DNA from: Komagataeibacter xylinus
GTDB taxonomy: Bacteria > Pseudomonadota > Alphaproteobacteria > Acetobacterales > Acetobacteraceae
Reading direction: 5' to 3'
Assembly: GCF_031081985.1 (NCBI RefSeq)
Contig: NZ_JARWSK010000009.1
Span: forward strand, 62,001-126,000
Length of the DNA stretch: 64,000 bases
In this document: one piece after another, positions 6,557 through 25,622 of the stretch
Layout: each line of letters opens with the position of its first letter
Numbering within the stretch: position 1 is the first letter of the stretch
Program-made: the position numbers and the translations under genes
Notes under the pieces: generated by a model
What the model was told of the DNA's origin: nothing
Seen by the model: the letters and a program-made list of their open reading frames with translations, nothing else
Database searches by the model: none

Positions 6557-6766
6557 TTAAAGCGATGGCCCCCACATGCCAGCCACGAACACGATGGCGC
6601 CAAGGGCCAGCATGGCGATATGGAACATGACCTGACCCGGCATGGCGTCAGGGCTGATGTTCAGCCCGTGAATGAACTGGACAAGAACCAACGTCAGCCC
6701 GATCACGCACAGCCCGATCCGCACGGGGCTGACGGTGGTGGGCCATATCGGGTTTCTGCGGTTCAT
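6557..6766 (-). CDS. Small two-helix membrane protein
   Basis: A 69-aa protein with two predicted membrane helices (about residues 15-35 and 44-64) and a short basic N-terminus. GGAGG lies 10 bases before the ATG at 6766. A much longer frame continues upstream but is a shadow on GC-rich DNA. Function unknown. Confidence 0.55.
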   Translation of the reverse strand: MNRRNPIWPTTVSPVRIGLCVIGLTLVLVQFIHGLNISPDAMPGQVMFHIAMLALGAIVFVAGMWGPSL

Positions 6767-6921
6767 CGGGGCGTGCCTCCAGCTTATTGGCGCAGCATGC
6801 CATAAAACCCGCCAGGGCAGAAGATGTGTCTGGCGCGCGCGGCATTTGCCCCTTCCGCGCCTCATGCTATGGGCAGGGTGTGGCCGTGGCCTGCGGCAAA
6901 AGGTGAACTGACAGGAACAAG

Positions 6922-7767
6922 ATGCGTCTCGATCGTTCTGCCATGGCGCGCGGGCTGGCCGCCTGTGCCGCAATGGGGCTGCTGGCCATGCCGCCTGTGG
7001 CGGCCCGGGCGCATCCTCACGCCCATCATCATGCCGCCCATGCCCACCCTGCCGCGCAGGCCGATGTGCCCGCAGGCCCGCCCTTGCCTGACGGGCAGGT
7101 GTTCCTGCCACCCCCACCCGGCCCGGACACGGCGCAGCGCGCGGCCGATGCCTCCATCTTTGCCGCCACCCGCGCCCTTGAAGGCACGCCACGGTGGAAA
7201 CTCGCGCAGGCCGATAACCGCGATACGCCTGCGCATATGGTCTCGGCCTTTTCGTGTGCGGCGGGCTTTACCCTGCCGCCCGAGCAGTTGCCCGAGCTCG
7301 TGGGCCTTGTGGCGCGGATCGAAAAGCGCCTCACGCCTGCCGTCAATGCCGAGAAGGCGCTATGGAATCGCCCCCGCCCCTTTACCGAGGCTGAACTTTC
7401 CACCTGCATTCCACTGCGCGCCGACCTCAAGCGTGATCCGTCCTACCCCTCGCTCCACGCCACGCTGGGCTGGGTGACGGGGCTGATCCTGTCCGATATC
7501 CTGCCTGATCGCACGGCTGCGATCATGCAGCGCGCCCGCGTGTTTGGCGAGAGCCGCGTGGTGTGTGGCGTGCAGTGGCAGACCGATGTCGCGGCGGGGT
7601 GGCTCAATGGCGGCGTGCTGTATTCGGCCATGGAGCAGGATGATGGCTTCAGGCAGGAAATGGATGCCGCGCGGGCGGAAGTGACGGCGCTGCACGCCAC
7701 CATGGCCGCTCCCCCTGCGGCCGAATGCGCCATCGAGGCCGACGCCGCAGCCCATCCGCCCCAGTGA
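6922..7767 (+). CDS. Class A (PAP2-type) acid phosphatase homologue, nucleophile His replaced by Gln
   Basis: A 281-aa secreted protein: signal peptide (residues 1-30), a His-rich segment, then the PAP2 domain of PhoN-like class A acid phosphatases. Motif 1 (K145-x6-R152-P153) and motif 2 (SYPSLHA, residues 174-180, with Leu for the usual Gly of SGH) are present. Motif 3 reads SRVVCGVQWQTDV: residue 218 is Gln (codon CAG) where the family has the His that becomes phosphorylated. The fold therefore looks complete but the enzyme is probably inactive or altered. It stands alone, transcribed toward sodC. Confidence 0.85.
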   Translation: MRLDRSAMARGLAACAAMGLLAMPPVAARAHPHAHHHAAHAHPAAQADVPAGPPLPDGQVFLPPPPGPDTAQRAADASIFAATRALEGTPRWKLAQADNRDTPAHMVSAFSCAAGFTLPPEQLPELVGLVARIEKRLTPAVNAEKALWNRPRPFTEAELSTCIPLRADLKRDPSYPSLHATLGWVTGLILSDILPDRTAAIMQRARVFGESRVVCGVQWQTDVAAGWLNGGVLYSAMEQDDGFRQEMDAARAEVTALHATMAAPPAAECAIEADAAAHPPQ

Positions 7768-11892: not shown

Positions 11893-12310
11893 CGGACGGT
11901 CCTTGAAGTATCTGTGGCCAGAACGGTTGGTACTGGTGGTGGAGCGGGCAGGAGGGGCCTGCGCCGCGTGGAACCATGCGCCACAGTCGATGGGGGCGGG
12001 CCACATGGGGGGCTACGGCATGCGCCTTGTTATGGAGTGAGGCCTGCAGGGTGGATCGTTTAATGCCGTATTGATGTATATCATAGGCATATTATGTGAT
12101 AATAGTAATTAATATCATATTAAATCCAGGACAGGTTTCTCCCCGGTCGAACGGATAGGTCTCTTTCAGTTCTGTAAATCAACGGTGTGGCGCGTGCTGT
12201 GGTTCCGACCGGATCGGGCGCGCGCCCGATCGAGGCGGGCTGGGGATTTGCCAAGACCGATGGGCTGCAATATCCAGATATCATCATAATGCAACGGATA
12301 TGGCAGGAAA
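11893..12310. other. Intergenic region between divergent genes, promoter region of panB
   Basis: About 420 bases without a gene. The section 12061-12130 is strikingly AT-rich and is likely promoter DNA. A perfect 20-base palindrome lies at 12212-12231, 80 bases before panB. Confidence 0.5.
12212..12231. promoter_or_regulatory. Perfect 20-base GC-rich palindrome upstream of panB
   Basis: The half-site GATCGGGCGC is followed directly by its reverse complement. There is no T-run, so it is not a terminator. It could be an operator or an RNA hairpin in the panB leader. No known regulator is assigned. Confidence 0.35.
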
Positions 12311-20397: not shown

Positions 20398-20480
20398 GGA
20401 TTCCTCCCCTTTTGTTTATAGGGCGGGGGGAGGACGTAACAAGAATACAAATTTTCAATGCGGCCCTGTGCTTTTTGCCT

Positions 20481-20606
20481 TTACCGGGATGTATTGTTGC
20501 GGGGAGGGGAAGCATTGGCCCGTCCGGGCGCTAAAAGCAGCACCATGAGCAGCAGCACGATAGCACCCGACCAGCCCCGCATGCGCGGGGTGGCGGGGTC
20601 ACCCAT
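20481..20606 (-). CDS. Micro-protein translationally coupled to porin gene
   Basis: A 41-aa frame whose ATG (20604-20606) shares a base with the porin stop codon (TGATG). The peptide has a single hydrophobic segment, GAIVLLLMVLLLAPG, and a polar C-terminus, like an uncleaved anchor or a short signal peptide. Coupled translation is the main evidence that it is real. No homologue is known to me. Confidence 0.4.
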   Translation of the reverse strand: MGDPATPRMRGWSGAIVLLLMVLLLAPGRANASPPRNNTSR

Positions 20607-22225
20607 CAGAACGTAATGCTGCTGTGCAGGCCAAAAATGGCCTCGTTTCCCACGCGGCGATTGTAGCTCACGCCATAATCGGGCACGCCGCCCGAGGGGT
20701 TCCACACGTACTGGAAGTCAGGCTGCATGACCATCCACGGCGTGACCTGTGCCTGGTAGGTCAGTTCAAGGTGGTTTTCATTGCCCTGCACGGGTGTGTA
20801 GGCGCTCAGGGCCGAGTTGCGGTCGAACTGGCGCTCGCCCGAACTGGCCCGGCCAATGCCCCAGCCCAGACCGATCGTGTCGTTATCGCGGCCCTTGAAC
20901 GGGGCCTTGAGGTTCAGCCCCGCATCAATGGCGAAGCTGATCAGGTTGCGGTCGCCGCTATTGCCGGTGGCGCGCACGAACAGGCCCAGCGACCGCGCTG
21001 ACGTGATGGAAGGCCGCCAGAGCATCTGGTCGATGATGCCATACACCATCCAGTTGCCCCGGTCCCAGCGCGGGATGCCGGTGGTGTCATTCGGGCTGCC
21101 GAGCGCCTGGCCCAGATTGTTGTAGCGGTAGTCGGCAAACTTCGCGGTATCGTAGTAGCCGCCCAGCTTGTACACGCCCGGCAGGCCGGGGTTCTTGGTC
21201 GCGTGCGCCATGTCGGCGGGCTGGGGGTTCAGCGCGTATTGCAGCTCGGTGATGAGCAGCGCGCCGGTGCCCATGTTGAAGTTGGTGCCGTTGGCGCCGT
21301 TATAGGTCTGGCTGGTGGGGTCGGAGTTGCTGCCGGCCGCCGAGCCGGTGGCCTGCTGGATGGGCAGGGAGTTGTAGCGGTTGCCCGGCGGGTTGTCGTC
21401 GGCTGCGGCAAACATGAAGGTGAACTTCTCGCTCGGTCGGTAGCGGATGCGGATGGCAGGCGACGACAGCGGCCAGGACGGGCCGCCGCCATACAGGTTG
21501 ACCGAGGGCGCCATGGGCCAGCCAAAGTTTGCGTTGAGGTAGAGCGAGGCGTAATCGCTGATCAGGAATTCGGTATCAAGATCCTGCTGGCCGATCTTCA
21601 CATCAAGTTTGCCCTTGAGGAAGGACTGCTGGTACCACAGTTCGAACAGGCGGGTGGAGCGGTCGGCCTCGAACCCGCTGACGGGGTTGAAATTGGCCAG
21701 ATGATCCTGCGAGATCGAGCGCCCGCGCGTCTGCAACGCACTGACATTGAACAGGCCGCCCTTCAGCCCGAACAGCTTTTCGGTATCCACGGTAAGCGTG
21801 GGCATGGTCACGCCATCATAGGACGGTCCCGTGCCCGAGCCACTGGCGCCATCATTGCCCGATGGCGTGCCGCCGGTGCCGTTGCCCCACACTTCATCGA
21901 CTTCCTGAATGTCGAAGCTGATGCCGTGCCTGTACAGCCATGGCCGCGCGCCCCACATATTACCCAGAAGGTTGCCGCTGGTGTCGAGCTTATCGCCGTC
22001 ACCCGCGGCTTTTTCCTCCGCTTCGGCGGTGGCGCGTTCTGAATCGCGCACCGTGGCGGGGTCGATCTGCACGATCAATGGCGTGGAGTTGCCCAGGCGG
22101 GCGCGGTCCTGCGCGATCTGGGTCTGGGCATGGGCTGCGGTGCAATACGCGCCGCTCAGGGCGCCCGACAGCAGCAGCAGGCGCGACAGGCGCCGCCGGC
22201 GCGGGAGGAGAATAGGCAATTTCAT
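20606..22225 (-). CDS. OprB-family carbohydrate porin
   Basis: A 539-aa outer membrane protein with a signal peptide (ending AHA near residue 33), a polar segment, then a beta-barrel with OprB marks: GISFDIQEVDEVWGN, the FELWYQQSFL-K-DVKIGQQDLDTEF block, SDYASLYLNANFGWP and a terminal Phe. OprB porins let mono- and disaccharides cross the outer membrane. The unusual point is its leader: a cobalamin riboswitch with its own promoter sits on the same strand, ending about 165 bases before the ATG. A micro-ORF overlaps its stop codon. Confidence 0.9.
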   Translation of the reverse strand: MKLPILLPRRRRLSRLLLLSGALSGAYCTAAHAQTQIAQDRARLGNSTPLIVQIDPATVRDSERATAEAEEKAAGDGDKLDTSGNLLGNMWGARPWLYRHGISFDIQEVDEVWGNGTGGTPSGNDGASGSGTGPSYDGVTMPTLTVDTEKLFGLKGGLFNVSALQTRGRSISQDHLANFNPVSGFEADRSTRLFELWYQQSFLKGKLDVKIGQQDLDTEFLISDYASLYLNANFGWPMAPSVNLYGGGPSWPLSSPAIRIRYRPSEKFTFMFAAADDNPPGNRYNSLPIQQATGSAAGSNSDPTSQTYNGANGTNFNMGTGALLITELQYALNPQPADMAHATKNPGLPGVYKLGGYYDTAKFADYRYNNLGQALGSPNDTTGIPRWDRGNWMVYGIIDQMLWRPSITSARSLGLFVRATGNSGDRNLISFAIDAGLNLKAPFKGRDNDTIGLGWGIGRASSGERQFDRNSALSAYTPVQGNENHLELTYQAQVTPWMVMQPDFQYVWNPSGGVPDYGVSYNRRVGNEAIFGLHSSITF

Positions 22226-22391
22226 GGTGGAAACATCCCGTCAGGATGGGTCTGGCGCTACAGGGCCAGAAGATGACAGGCCAACACAAAGGCCCATCGC
22301 TGGTACGGCATACGGGATGTCAGGTCGGAGGGCGCATGGTCTCATATCCATCTCCGGTCATGCCCGCCCGGCGATATCGTTAAAGGACAAT

Positions 22392-22589
22392 GGCAGGTCT
22401 CCTGACTTGCGGGTCATTGCACGCCATCTCCCTTCCCGGCCGGAGCCAGTGGTTGCCATCGGCATGGCACCAGATGAAGCACTCTCCGCCTACAGTTGCG
22501 GGTACAGTTGCCGACTGAGCCCCCGGGCCTGAAGACCCTGCCGAAGCTTACGGCATTCCCTTTTTCACCCGTTTGCACGGGACCATTGA
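22392..22589 (-). promoter_or_regulatory. Cobalamin riboswitch
   Basis: Read on the minus strand, the region contains the conserved blocks of the AdoCbl aptamer in order: GGTGAAAAAGGGAA near the 5' end, CCCGCAACTGTAGGCGG, the B12-box-like ACCACTGG, CCGGGAAGGG, and the closing GCAAGTCAGGAGACCTGCC. Spacing and order match the class. The next gene downstream is the OprB-like porin. In the leader, ACATCCCGT near 22308-22316 can pair with ACGGGATGT near 22229-22237 just before the porin ATG, a possible translation switch (inference). Confidence 0.9.
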
Positions 22590-22602
22590 CTTGTCGGGCT
22601 GG

Positions 22603-22630
22603 ACTATACCGTGCGCGGATCAATGTGCAA
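22603..22630 (-). promoter_or_regulatory. Sigma-70-type promoter of the riboswitch transcript
   Basis: Minus-strand TTGCAC (22625-22630) and TATAGT (22603-22608) are separated by 16 bases and lie just upstream of the aptamer 5' end, where transcription of the riboswitch should start. Confidence 0.6.
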
Positions 22631-22875: not shown

Positions 22876-25404
22876 TCAGGCTGCTGGCACAGGCTCGGCC
22901 CGGCGTTCCCTGATCCATGTATCAAGGGCTGCGGTATCCATCGGGCGGCCAAAATAATAGCCCTGTATCACGTCGCAATCGATGTTGCGCAACTGGGCGC
23001 ACTGGGCGGCGTCCTCCACCCCTTCGGCCACCACGGTCATGCCCAGCGTGTGGCCGATGCGGATGATGGCGGTCACCACCTGGCGCACGTTGCCGGTGCT
23101 GCCAAAGCCGTTCATGAAGCTGCGGTCGATCTTGACCTCGCTTATGGGCAGGCTGGCAAGGTTGGACAGGCTGGAATACCCGGTGCCGAAATCATCCATC
23201 GACAGGCCGATGCCCAGTTCACGGATGGCCCGGGCGGTGGCCACCGTCTGCTCGAAGTTCTCGATCATGGCGGTCTCGGTCAGTTCCACGATCAGGCGTT
23301 CGGGCGGCACGTTGGTCTCGTGCAGGATGGTGGCAAGCTGCGCCACGAGTTCAGGGTCCTGGAACTGGATGGCCGAGACATTGACCGATACGGTGGGCAC
23401 GGGAATGCCGTGCGCGATCCACTGCGCCATCTGCGCGCACGCCGCCCGCAGCGACCACACGCCAATGGCGCGGATCTGCCCGGTTTCCTCCGCCACGGGA
23501 ATGAACCGCCCCGGCGAGACCATGCCCAGCACCGCATCGTTCCAGCGCGAGAGCGCCTCCACGCCATGCAGTTCGCCCGTGCTCAGGTCAACCTGGGGCT
23601 GATAGACAAGGCTCAGCCGGTTATCGGCAATGGCCTCGCGCAGGGCGGAGGCGAGGATGATGTGATCTTCCGCCTGCCGGTTCATGGAAGGGTGGAAGAA
23701 GCGGTAACAGCACCGCCCCGCCTTCTTGGCCTGCGCGAGCGCGGTATAGGCCTGGCGCAGGGTTTCTTCCACGGCCTGCCCGTCCTGATGGGTGCTGATG
23801 CCAATGCTGCCCGAAATGTTGATGGGAATGTTATCGACCGTAAACGGCTCTTCAAGCGTGTGGAGGATGCGCTCGGCCAGATGCGTGATGTCGGTGGCGT
23901 CCTGCGTGGTCAGCACCACGAATTCATCGCCCTCCGTGCGCACCAGCACGTCGCGCCCCACAATGCCGTGGCGCAGGCGGCCCGCGAGTTCGAGCAGCAT
24001 CTGGTCGGCCCGGCCCTGGCCGAGCGCCTGCACGATCTTGCGGAAACGGTCGAGGTCGATGACCATGATGCTCAGCGCTGTTGCAGGCGGCCGGGCCACG
24101 AGTTCGTTGAGGCGGCGGTTGAGCCACAGGCGGTTGGGCAGGCTGGTCAGCCGGTCGGTATAGGACAGGCGGATGATGGATTCACGGCTGCGCTGCTGCT
24201 CGATGGCCAGCATGGCCAGATGCACGCAGGCATTGACAATGCGCCGGTGCCACGCCCCCGGCTGGCCGGGCGTGCGGAAATAGAGCGAGAAGCTGCCCGC
24301 AACCTCGCCATTGCGCAGGATGACGGGCACCGCCCACTCGGCTGCCAGCGCATGCTCGGCCACGACCGCGCGCAGGGCGGGCCAGCGCTCCTCCGCCGCA
24401 AGATCGGGCACCTCCACTTCCTTTGCCGTGGCGATGGCCGTGCCGCATGCGCCGCCTGCCGTGCCGGCCTCCAGCCCCTCGAATGCCTGCAGCACGGGCA
24501 GGGGCATGGCGCCGTGGCCACCGGCATGCAGCACGCCGCCGTTGCTGAGCATGACCACGGCCAGGCAGTCCGGCGCGATGAGTTCGATGCGGCGGCACAT
24601 GAAATCAAGCATCTCGCGCAGGGAGAACTGGTCCGTCAGTGCCTCGACCACGTCGCGCTGCAGGTTGCGCAACTGCCGGTCATGCGTGATGTCGTGGATG
24701 ATGATGATGATATCGGCCAGCGTGCCGTCATCCGCGTAATGCGGCGTGACCGCGCAGCGCAGCCACAGCGCCACGCCCTGCGGGCCACGGGCCTGCACAT
24801 CCACCTCGAAGCCGGTGCGGCGGGCAAGGTGTGCGCGGAACTGGCGCAGGGTGCCGATATCGTTTTCCGCCCCCGCCAGCAGCGTGCCAAACGGCGCGCC
24901 GTGCAGCGCGTCGCGCTCCACGCCAAGCATGGTGGCGATGGCGGCATTGGCATGGGTGATGCGGTACTGCGCATCGAGCACCACAATGCCCCGGTCGGTC
25001 GCCTGCACGATCATGGCGCTGATCTCGGCCTGCTCGCGCACCAGATCCTCGTGCGTGCGGTCATGCAGGGCGATCAGTTCATAGGGCACGCCATCCCATT
25101 CTACATGTTCACGGTACAGGCGCACGGGCAGGCCCAGCCCATCCCTGCGGCGCAGCGTGGTGCAGTGCGATGGTGTTGTCCCCTGTTCCGGCAGGCCCGG
25201 CGTGGCCGCGGCATCCGCACCGGGCCGCATGCCCTGGGTAAACAGGCGGCCGAGGCGGGTGGCGGCGAGTTCCGTGGCGCTGTAGCCGGTCATGGCGCAG
25301 GCGCATGCGTTGCCATAGAGTACATGACCCGCGCTGTCCGCCATCATCAGCGCCAACGGCAGTTTCTCCAGAAGCGGGGAAGAAATCTGTGTGATGTCTG
25401 GCAT
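22876..25404 (-). CDS. PAS-GAF-GGDEF-EAL protein, probable c-di-GMP phosphodiesterase
   Basis: An 842-aa cytoplasmic protein. Order: PAS domain (about 10-120), second PAS (about 125-245), GAF-like domain (about 250-410), GGDEF domain, EAL domain. The GGDEF signature is EGDEF (first Gly replaced by Glu), so cyclase activity is doubtful and a GTP-sensing role is possible. The EAL domain is intact: EALSRW, NVSAIQF, ELTET, DDFGTGYSS, KIDRSF, AEGVE and QGYYFGRP. It should hydrolyse c-di-GMP, which controls cellulose synthesis in this bacterial group. The ATG at 25404 gives the normal N-terminus; an upstream ATG at 25467 exists. Confidence 0.9.
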   Translation of the reverse strand: MPDITQISSPLLEKLPLALMMADSAGHVLYGNACACAMTGYSATELAATRLGRLFTQGMRPGADAAATPGLPEQGTTPSHCTTLRRRDGLGLPVRLYREHVEWDGVPYELIALHDRTHEDLVREQAEISAMIVQATDRGIVVLDAQYRITHANAAIATMLGVERDALHGAPFGTLLAGAENDIGTLRQFRAHLARRTGFEVDVQARGPQGVALWLRCAVTPHYADDGTLADIIIIIHDITHDRQLRNLQRDVVEALTDQFSLREMLDFMCRRIELIAPDCLAVVMLSNGGVLHAGGHGAMPLPVLQAFEGLEAGTAGGACGTAIATAKEVEVPDLAAEERWPALRAVVAEHALAAEWAVPVILRNGEVAGSFSLYFRTPGQPGAWHRRIVNACVHLAMLAIEQQRSRESIIRLSYTDRLTSLPNRLWLNRRLNELVARPPATALSIMVIDLDRFRKIVQALGQGRADQMLLELAGRLRHGIVGRDVLVRTEGDEFVVLTTQDATDITHLAERILHTLEEPFTVDNIPINISGSIGISTHQDGQAVEETLRQAYTALAQAKKAGRCCYRFFHPSMNRQAEDHIILASALREAIADNRLSLVYQPQVDLSTGELHGVEALSRWNDAVLGMVSPGRFIPVAEETGQIRAIGVWSLRAACAQMAQWIAHGIPVPTVSVNVSAIQFQDPELVAQLATILHETNVPPERLIVELTETAMIENFEQTVATARAIRELGIGLSMDDFGTGYSSLSNLASLPISEVKIDRSFMNGFGSTGNVRQVVTAIIRIGHTLGMTVVAEGVEDAAQCAQLRNIDCDVIQGYYFGRPMDTAALDTWIRERRAEPVPAA

Positions 25405-25622
25405 GATGGCGTCTTTCCACAAGGTCCTGGTCCTTTGCCGCATGGCACGCCCATGATGACGGGGCATGAAATGCGCGGTTTTTCAGGCGATAAGGGGCAT
25501 TGGCGTATCTTTAACTTTATTGCGGCAGTTTTATGGCCTGCTTTTGTAGTGTATTTACCGATTCATGTTTCGTTTTGACTGTTCCATCACCTGCACATAC
25601 AGGGGCATAATGTGGCGGTGGA

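Follow-up and report, generated by a model that had tools for sequence, protein, structure and literature searches.

We found a cobalamin riboswitch directly upstream of an OprB-family outer-membrane porin gene in a 64,000-nucleotide stretch of Komagataeibacter xylinus DNA (contig NZ_JARWSK010000009.1, positions 62,001 to 126,000; hereafter the window). We also found that the same genome carries a near-identical twin of this porin, lacking the riboswitch, in an iron-uptake locus. Judging from sequence comparison, it is an evenly balanced proposition that the window porin is a copy of a metal-uptake porin placed under repression by B12, likely for cobalt entry. A fuller account is more tentative, and we hold it at somewhat less than an even chance: an iron-uptake porin would have been duplicated into a copy with a Fur-type box and a copy with a B12 riboswitch, gene conversion would keep the proteins alike while the leaders stay apart, and the B12-controlled copy would be a dedicated cobalt route (perhaps for a sugar-acid complex) in a B12-making cell without BtuB.

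The riboswitch, its leader and the porin

The original prediction described a cobalamin riboswitch with an upstream promoter TTGCAC-16-TATAGT in front of an OprB-type porin, and all three elements held up. A covariance search with the Rfam model RF00174 (cmscan) matched the minus strand at 22602-22375 with 99.2 bits against a gathering score of 31.5 (E = 1.4e-23). The match spans the full model (1-189) and is not truncated, and all three aptamer blocks quoted in the prediction are present in the window sequence. In an RNAalifold consensus of 16 leaders, all of which had been found with RF00174's own model, two-sided changes that keep the pair occur in 22 of the 87 predicted pairs, and 17 of these 22 lie in the aptamer. 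The promoter (22630-22603, minus strand) is absent from the listing of a generic sigma-70 scan; the form TTG[C/T]NN-16-TATAGT is kept in 15 of the 16 syntenic leaders of the genus.

The porin (22225-20606, minus strand, 539 amino acids) starts 149 nucleotides after the end of the aptamer. It matches PF04966 at 343.3 bits (cut-off 22.9; profile positions 3-372 of 372), and phmmer related it to Porin B 4gey/4gf4 (E = 4.8e-19). Its closest named relative, at 97%, comes from Komagataeibacter xylinus K2G30. PF04966 was the sole Pfam match and NCBIfam gave none, so that neither a BtuB-type plug nor a TonB-dependent barrel was found in these two collections. A structure prediction from 24 sequences reached a mean predicted local distance difference test (pLDDT) score of 45, too poor for judging the pore.

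The arrangement proved to be conserved in related genomes. Cobalamin riboswitches occur in all 19 genomes of the genus, with 118 matches and up to 17 in one genome. We followed 99 of them and left out the 19 weakest (24-33 bits, three above the cut-off), which include the one before the cobalt transporter CbtA in the window genome. A riboswitch lies directly before this porin in 23 of the 99 cases, distributed over 18 of the 19 genomes. The porin is followed by orf262 and def165, as in the window, at 8/8 loci of other genomes with downstream sequence. The GGDEF/EAL gene of the window lies within 3.2 kb upstream in 12 of 15 fetched riboswitch-porin stretches (not in genomes G131, G128 and G123), although the ends of the stretches cut some of the EAL matches. 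Beyond the genus, RF00174 (92-114 bits) was found just before the porin at 6/6 checked loci of Novacetimonas, Gluconacetobacter entanii and Acetobacter okinawensis. One Novacetimonas hansenii locus (L038) has three cobalamin riboswitches in 12.5 kb: one precedes the porin, and the others lie at 6766-6984 and 11967-12207.

Between the aptamer and the start codon we identified a candidate expression platform. The hairpin CCGG-GCGGGCATGA-CCGG (22354..22371, minus strand), which we take to be P13-like, carries a loop GCGGG that can kiss the aptamer loop CCCGC; these loops presumably correspond to L13 and L5. Four of the five pairs of this contact are invariant in 16/16 leaders and the fifth is formed in 15/16, giving full complementarity in 15/16, which is what the kissing contact of B12 riboswitches requires. 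Further downstream, ACATCCCGT (22312..22320, minus strand) is the 5' arm of a long-range helix whose 3' arm, ACGGGATGT (22241-22233), lies 70 nucleotides away. All nine pairs of this helix are present in the minimum-energy fold and in the centroid, the helix is also found by RNAalifold, and 96.5% of its cells are paired across the 16 leaders.

The 3' arm is the 3' part of an 18-nucleotide element, CCCATCCTGACGGGATGT (22233..22250, minus strand), which is the longest invariant run of the leader alignment (18 columns, 16/16) and lies directly 5' of the start codon, outside the aptamer. It matches 18/18 in the 16 porin leaders of the syntenic locus, and none of the remaining 83 riboswitch leaders exceeds 14/18; 7 of these 83 belong to island-type porin copies elsewhere in the genus. 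A second leader type, seen in these island copies and in Novacetimonas, has other letters at this place, apparently complementary by eye (CUGUC/GACAG). By eye, ACGGGATGT is the likeliest ribosome-binding segment.

The aptamer is predicted to bind a cobalamin with an effect on expression. The minus strand between 19700 and 22900 yielded no terminator-like site, and we infer translational control of the porin with repression by adenosylcobalamin (AdoCbl). When AdoCbl is plentiful, the leader would be bound and the L5-L13 kiss would form; ACGGGATGT, just 5' of the start codon, would then be held in the helix with ACATCCCGT and the porin would remain untranslated. When B12 is low, the ACGGGATGT region would be released and the porin made. 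A leader peptide noticed by eye in the 3' region of the riboswitch (ATGGAT...TGA) was dropped because its frame is inconstant, being open in some leaders, stopped early in others and elsewhere running into the porin frame.

The twin porin in an iron-uptake locus

The twin porin (G000:C9:358710-360290, where G000 is the window genome) is 98.2% identical to the window porin over residues 31-539, with 7 amino-acid differences from residue 35 on and 47 nucleotide mismatches in 1530 aligned positions. Nucleotide identity begins at about codon 31 and ends at the stop codon, and in the leaders and flanks it amounts to at most 0.25-0.5 per 60 bases. Divergent from the twin are genes for a PF10634 iron-transport protein, a periplasmic binding protein and a FecCD permease. 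The first of these proteins (P19) has a relative near 14 of the 64 named porin loci, all 14 without riboswitch, and near 0 of the 16 with one; some of the named riboswitch loci have short flanks, which weakens the absence there, and L038 has a FecCD relative at 34%. The P19-linked loci include Gluconacetobacter, Novacetimonas and Acetobacter, so the iron-locus porin looks older and the riboswitch copy would be the derived one. In addition, a gene for a 185-amino-acid probable membrane protein without Pfam match lies directly upstream of the Fur-box porin in L227 (6474-7031, minus strand), and its relatives accompany the porin at the 14 named loci that also have the PF10634 gene.

The promoter of the twin contains a palindrome, ATTGAGAACCATTATTAATGATATTGATTCTCAAT, that resembles overlapping Fur boxes. 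Scored against what we take to be the 19-letter Fur consensus, 16 of 19 close non-riboswitch copies match at least 13 of the 19 letters (range 12-14). The scores of 12 riboswitch copies are 9-11, and 8 of 300 shuffles reach 13; 14 of the 300 draws hit sequences that lack upstream letters and count as 0. The 19 copies scored are loci from 18 genomes (none for G134), once same-place duplicates, copies in the 64-67% group and two fragments lacking upstream sequence had been set aside; the scoring pattern missed the riboswitch of L206, which the covariance search shows.

We then compared the window genome as a whole with a 7-1-7 pattern, TGAKAATNRTTMTCA, allowing 1 mismatch. Of its 9 matches in the 3.5-Mb genome two overlap, leaving 8 sites, and the reversed control gave 0. 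The pattern was drawn from the twin/P19 boxes, so that 3 of the 8 sites lie there by construction, and a 35-letter motif was likewise drawn from these sequences. Another site lies between ExbB-like and TonB-receptor genes, one no more than 1.5 kb from a ferritin-domain gene and one near an outer-membrane efflux gene. Two are without evident iron link; their neighbours are, by eye, a decarboxylase-like gene and a pair resembling citrate synthase and orotate phosphoribosyltransferase (PRT). An initial Fur pattern, TTGAGAATNATTCTCAA, was discarded after giving 0 matches with 2 mismatches allowed. These boxes point to Fur as the regulator of the twin, which would respond to iron.

We mapped the riboswitch label onto a 53-row protein tree. 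The label changes 11 times, and at least 7 changes are forced by well-supported branches. Rows L206, L223, L225 and L226 were set to riboswitch by hand, L224 counts as lacking one by default because it has no upstream sequence, and L066 was mislabelled as lacking its riboswitch, so that the 11 changes would drop by about one. The riboswitch copy and the other copy of one genome stand side by side on the tree in G131, G060 and G123. Compared as nucleotide sequences, the riboswitch copy is closest to the other porin copy within the same genome in 7 of 10 genomes. Within-genome identity is 98.7% in G123, 97.4% in the window genome, 96.8% in G131 and 96.1% in G060, and lower in G125 (89.8%), G133 (86.4%) and G132 (86.0%, where the copy compared is the riboswitch-island locus and not the syntenic one); between genomes it averages 84-85%.

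Since the riboswitch locus keeps its genomic place while the coding sequences stay alike and the flanks differ, gene conversion of the coding part would be the simplest reading. Repeated capture of a leader is the alternative for individual cases. The genomes compared are partly fragmented at these near-identical repeats. Elsewhere in the window genome (L228, G000:C1:145000-158000) we observed two more OprB genes arranged tail to tail, whose identities with the window porin are 66% and 39%, and the same pairing occurs in other genomes of the genus.

Cobalt as the candidate cargo, and the alternatives

We examined the cobalt and B12 genes of the window genome (3.53 Mb, 16 contigs). Its second riboswitch precedes genes for DUF1636, CobW, CobN and a protein with nitrite/sulfite-reductase domains, presumably CobG. 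MetH, cobT and cobW-cobN are present, and an apparent stop inside MetH is, by eye, the natural stop at the gene end. No match to the MetE N-domain, by which alone MetE was sought, was found in this genome. With MetH, no MetE N-domain match and B12 genes, the cell should need cobalt for methionine. The best match to the BtuB model TIGR01779 is partial and scores 77.7 bits, which suggests that the genome is without BtuB; 9 relatives have 14 receptors that score 210-230 bits, and the cut-off of 599.7 is not attained in any of the 19 genomes.

Other genomes of the genus (L127, L128, L137 and related loci) carry a gene cluster with individual cobalamin riboswitches. It holds metE (by eye), a BtuB-F-C-D-like operon, a DUF2147 protein and a second porin copy. 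It also holds proteins with the MetE N-terminal domain only (PF08267; 318 and 360 amino acids in those scanned), paired with a Rieske/VanA_C-type oxygenase (one scanned). This pair might form an oxygen-dependent, B12-independent methionine route.

A metal pore is suggested because the twin sits in an iron-uptake locus and the window copy stands under the sensor of a cobalt-containing cofactor. In the mechanism we propose, the same pore would be opened by an iron signal (Fur-like box, PF10634/FecCD locus) or by a B12 signal, and gene conversion would keep both coding sequences alike in several lineages. The B12-controlled copy would most likely pass cobalt, free or bound to a sugar acid, over the outer membrane towards CbtA and cobaltochelatase. 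The original prediction had offered a corrinoid, cobalt or a substrate of a B12-dependent pathway as cargo. Of these, cobalt is best supported by context (the iron-locus twin and the riboswitches before CobW-CobN and CbtA), and the corrinoid has become less likely, because nine relatives with BtuB-like receptors also keep the porin under a riboswitch.

The porin might instead be a general or sugar-acid pore, with the iron-type box and the riboswitch both raising outer-membrane permeability under nutrient stress; low B12 would stall MetH, and the cargo may be methionine, peptides or carbon and not a metal. We consider this unlikely, although PF04966 is the carbohydrate-selective OprB family, the porin's sequence relatives of solved structure are Porin B 4gey/4gf4, and the nine full-length OprB genes and one fragment of this genome fit a broad nutrient role. 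The combination of MetH with no MetE N-domain match also agrees with it, in that B12 shortage should mean methionine shortage. What a general pore leaves unexplained are the iron-linked porin copies near PF10634 genes in four genera and the other two riboswitches, which precede cobalt and B12 genes.

Entry of B12 itself or of a corrinoid precursor (cobinamide, cobyric acid) through the porin is improbable. Control by a cobalamin riboswitch and the partial BtuB-model match would suit such a cargo, but corrinoids, at about 1 kDa or more, are larger than the sugars known for OprB pores, the twin is linked with iron genes, and the riboswitch-porin arrangement persists in the nine genomes that have BtuB-like receptors. 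Neutral regulatory capture of the riboswitch, with no dedicated physiological role, appears very improbable to us. The same porin does occur with and without a riboswitch, and the repeated label changes on the tree are in keeping with capture; however, the conserved leader occupies a single genomic position across much of the genus, and an 18-nucleotide invariant platform with a conserved kissing loop would not be expected to persist under neutrality.

Several observations weigh against a B12-repressed cobalt porin or against parts of that account. The changes in the platform helix are one-sided only, with at least one pair broken in three of the 16 leaders, and the whole-leader fold does not exceed shuffles in stability (z = -0.53; 31/100 at least as stable). 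Three of the 19 close non-riboswitch copies score only 12/19 for the Fur consensus, and L222 is without a clear box. In 3 of 10 genomes (G135, G136, G128) the two copies are not mutual best partners. The third riboswitch of the window genome, before CbtA, is weak (31.4 bits, just below the cut-off of 31.5). G126 has no riboswitch-porin, though contig ends cut its porin copies. An OprB match was found in 0 of 30 family-level riboswitch loci (the best-scoring ones, flanks up to 1.5 kb), which may mean that only this group of acetic acid bacteria has the arrangement. The persistence of the riboswitch-porin beside BtuB-like receptors in nine relatives counts here as well, as does the carbohydrate selectivity that Pfam ascribes to PF04966, metal selectivity being a prediction in our case. 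General porins might already admit cobalt, and a dedicated pore needs a reason. Finally, according to the discussion of PMC9705863, neither cobalt nor iron uptake could be linked to the OprB-domain porins mutated in Anabaena.

With two near-identical copies, one behind an iron-type box and one behind a B12 riboswitch, this porin offers a simple genetic test of a porin route for cobalt in cellulose-producing acetic acid bacteria. It would also extend the outer-membrane targets of cobalamin riboswitches past TonB-dependent receptors.

Neighbouring sequence and known systems

The original prediction also included a micro-open reading frame (micro-ORF) coupled to the porin. A 41-codon ORF that overlaps the porin stop via TGATG does exist (20481..20606, minus strand), but we rejected it as a coupled gene for want of conservation. 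The 13 syntenic rows compared comprise 9 distinct sequences, four rows being repeats. The full-length ORF with TGATG is found in 3/9 (the window genome, G135 and G136); among the remaining six, G060 has TGATG with a 21-codon ORF, and five are without TGATG. Synonymous and non-synonymous codon differences number 5/5 for G135 and 9/11 for G136, giving no sign of selection on the peptide, and the ORF is probably non-functional.

Between the porin and the next minus-strand ORF (20397-19819), a block AAAAAGCACAGGG...ATTGAAAATTTGTATTCTTGTT (20438..20476, minus strand) is kept in all 9 distinct sequences while the surrounding sequence varies. It may be a start region of the next gene and hence a boundary of the porin unit, or perhaps an unusual promoter. 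The upstream neighbour (22876-25467, minus strand) encodes a PAS-GAF-GGDEF-EAL protein, whose best NCBIfam match is DosP at 635.7 bits, below the cut-off of 857.

Slr1908 of Synechocystis presumably has an SLH plus an OprB domain. The window porin had no SLH match in Pfam, a distinction by domain content and without direct sequence comparison. Slr1908 is an OprB-like porin reported to pass inorganic iron (Qiu et al. 2021, via PMC9705863 and PMC9723758); it resembles the window porin in this family membership and differs in that the window porin matches OprB alone, and B12 control goes unmentioned for Slr1908 in the passages of these two papers that describe it. Transport of manganese, zinc or cobalt has been suggested for specific porins in the introduction of PMC9705863. 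In Geobacter sulfurreducens, an OprB-family porin before feoAB has predicted Fur control and was proposed for ferrous iron (PMC545781). It thus stands beside iron transport like the twin, but no B12-controlled twin is mentioned in the corresponding passages of that paper, and the B12-element targets named there include no porin.

Cobalt-entry genes under B12 riboswitches are themselves known. Cobalt transporters have been recognised in silico by AdoCbl riboswitches (PMC7689651, section 5.1.1), and the window porin would resemble them in this respect. The legend of Fig. 4 in the same review names porins as one cobalt route through the outer membrane, whereas its Table 1 of cobalt uptake proteins, unlike the window case, includes no porin. 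No description of a cobalamin riboswitch before an OprB porin was found in searches of open PubMed Central papers, most subscription papers lying outside this scope.

Also among the closest known systems is the btuB riboswitch of E. coli and other bacteria (RF00174), which shares the aptamer core, the kissing loop and an outer-membrane beta-barrel target. The btuB leader acts on translation start (PMC7689651), and we liken the window leader to it. The window system differs in that its target is an OprB porin and not a TonB-dependent receptor, and in that the window genome is without a high-scoring BtuB-like receptor. The parts are known, and what appears new with respect to the open literature is their combination, a B12-riboswitch twin of an iron-locus porin that is kept alike.

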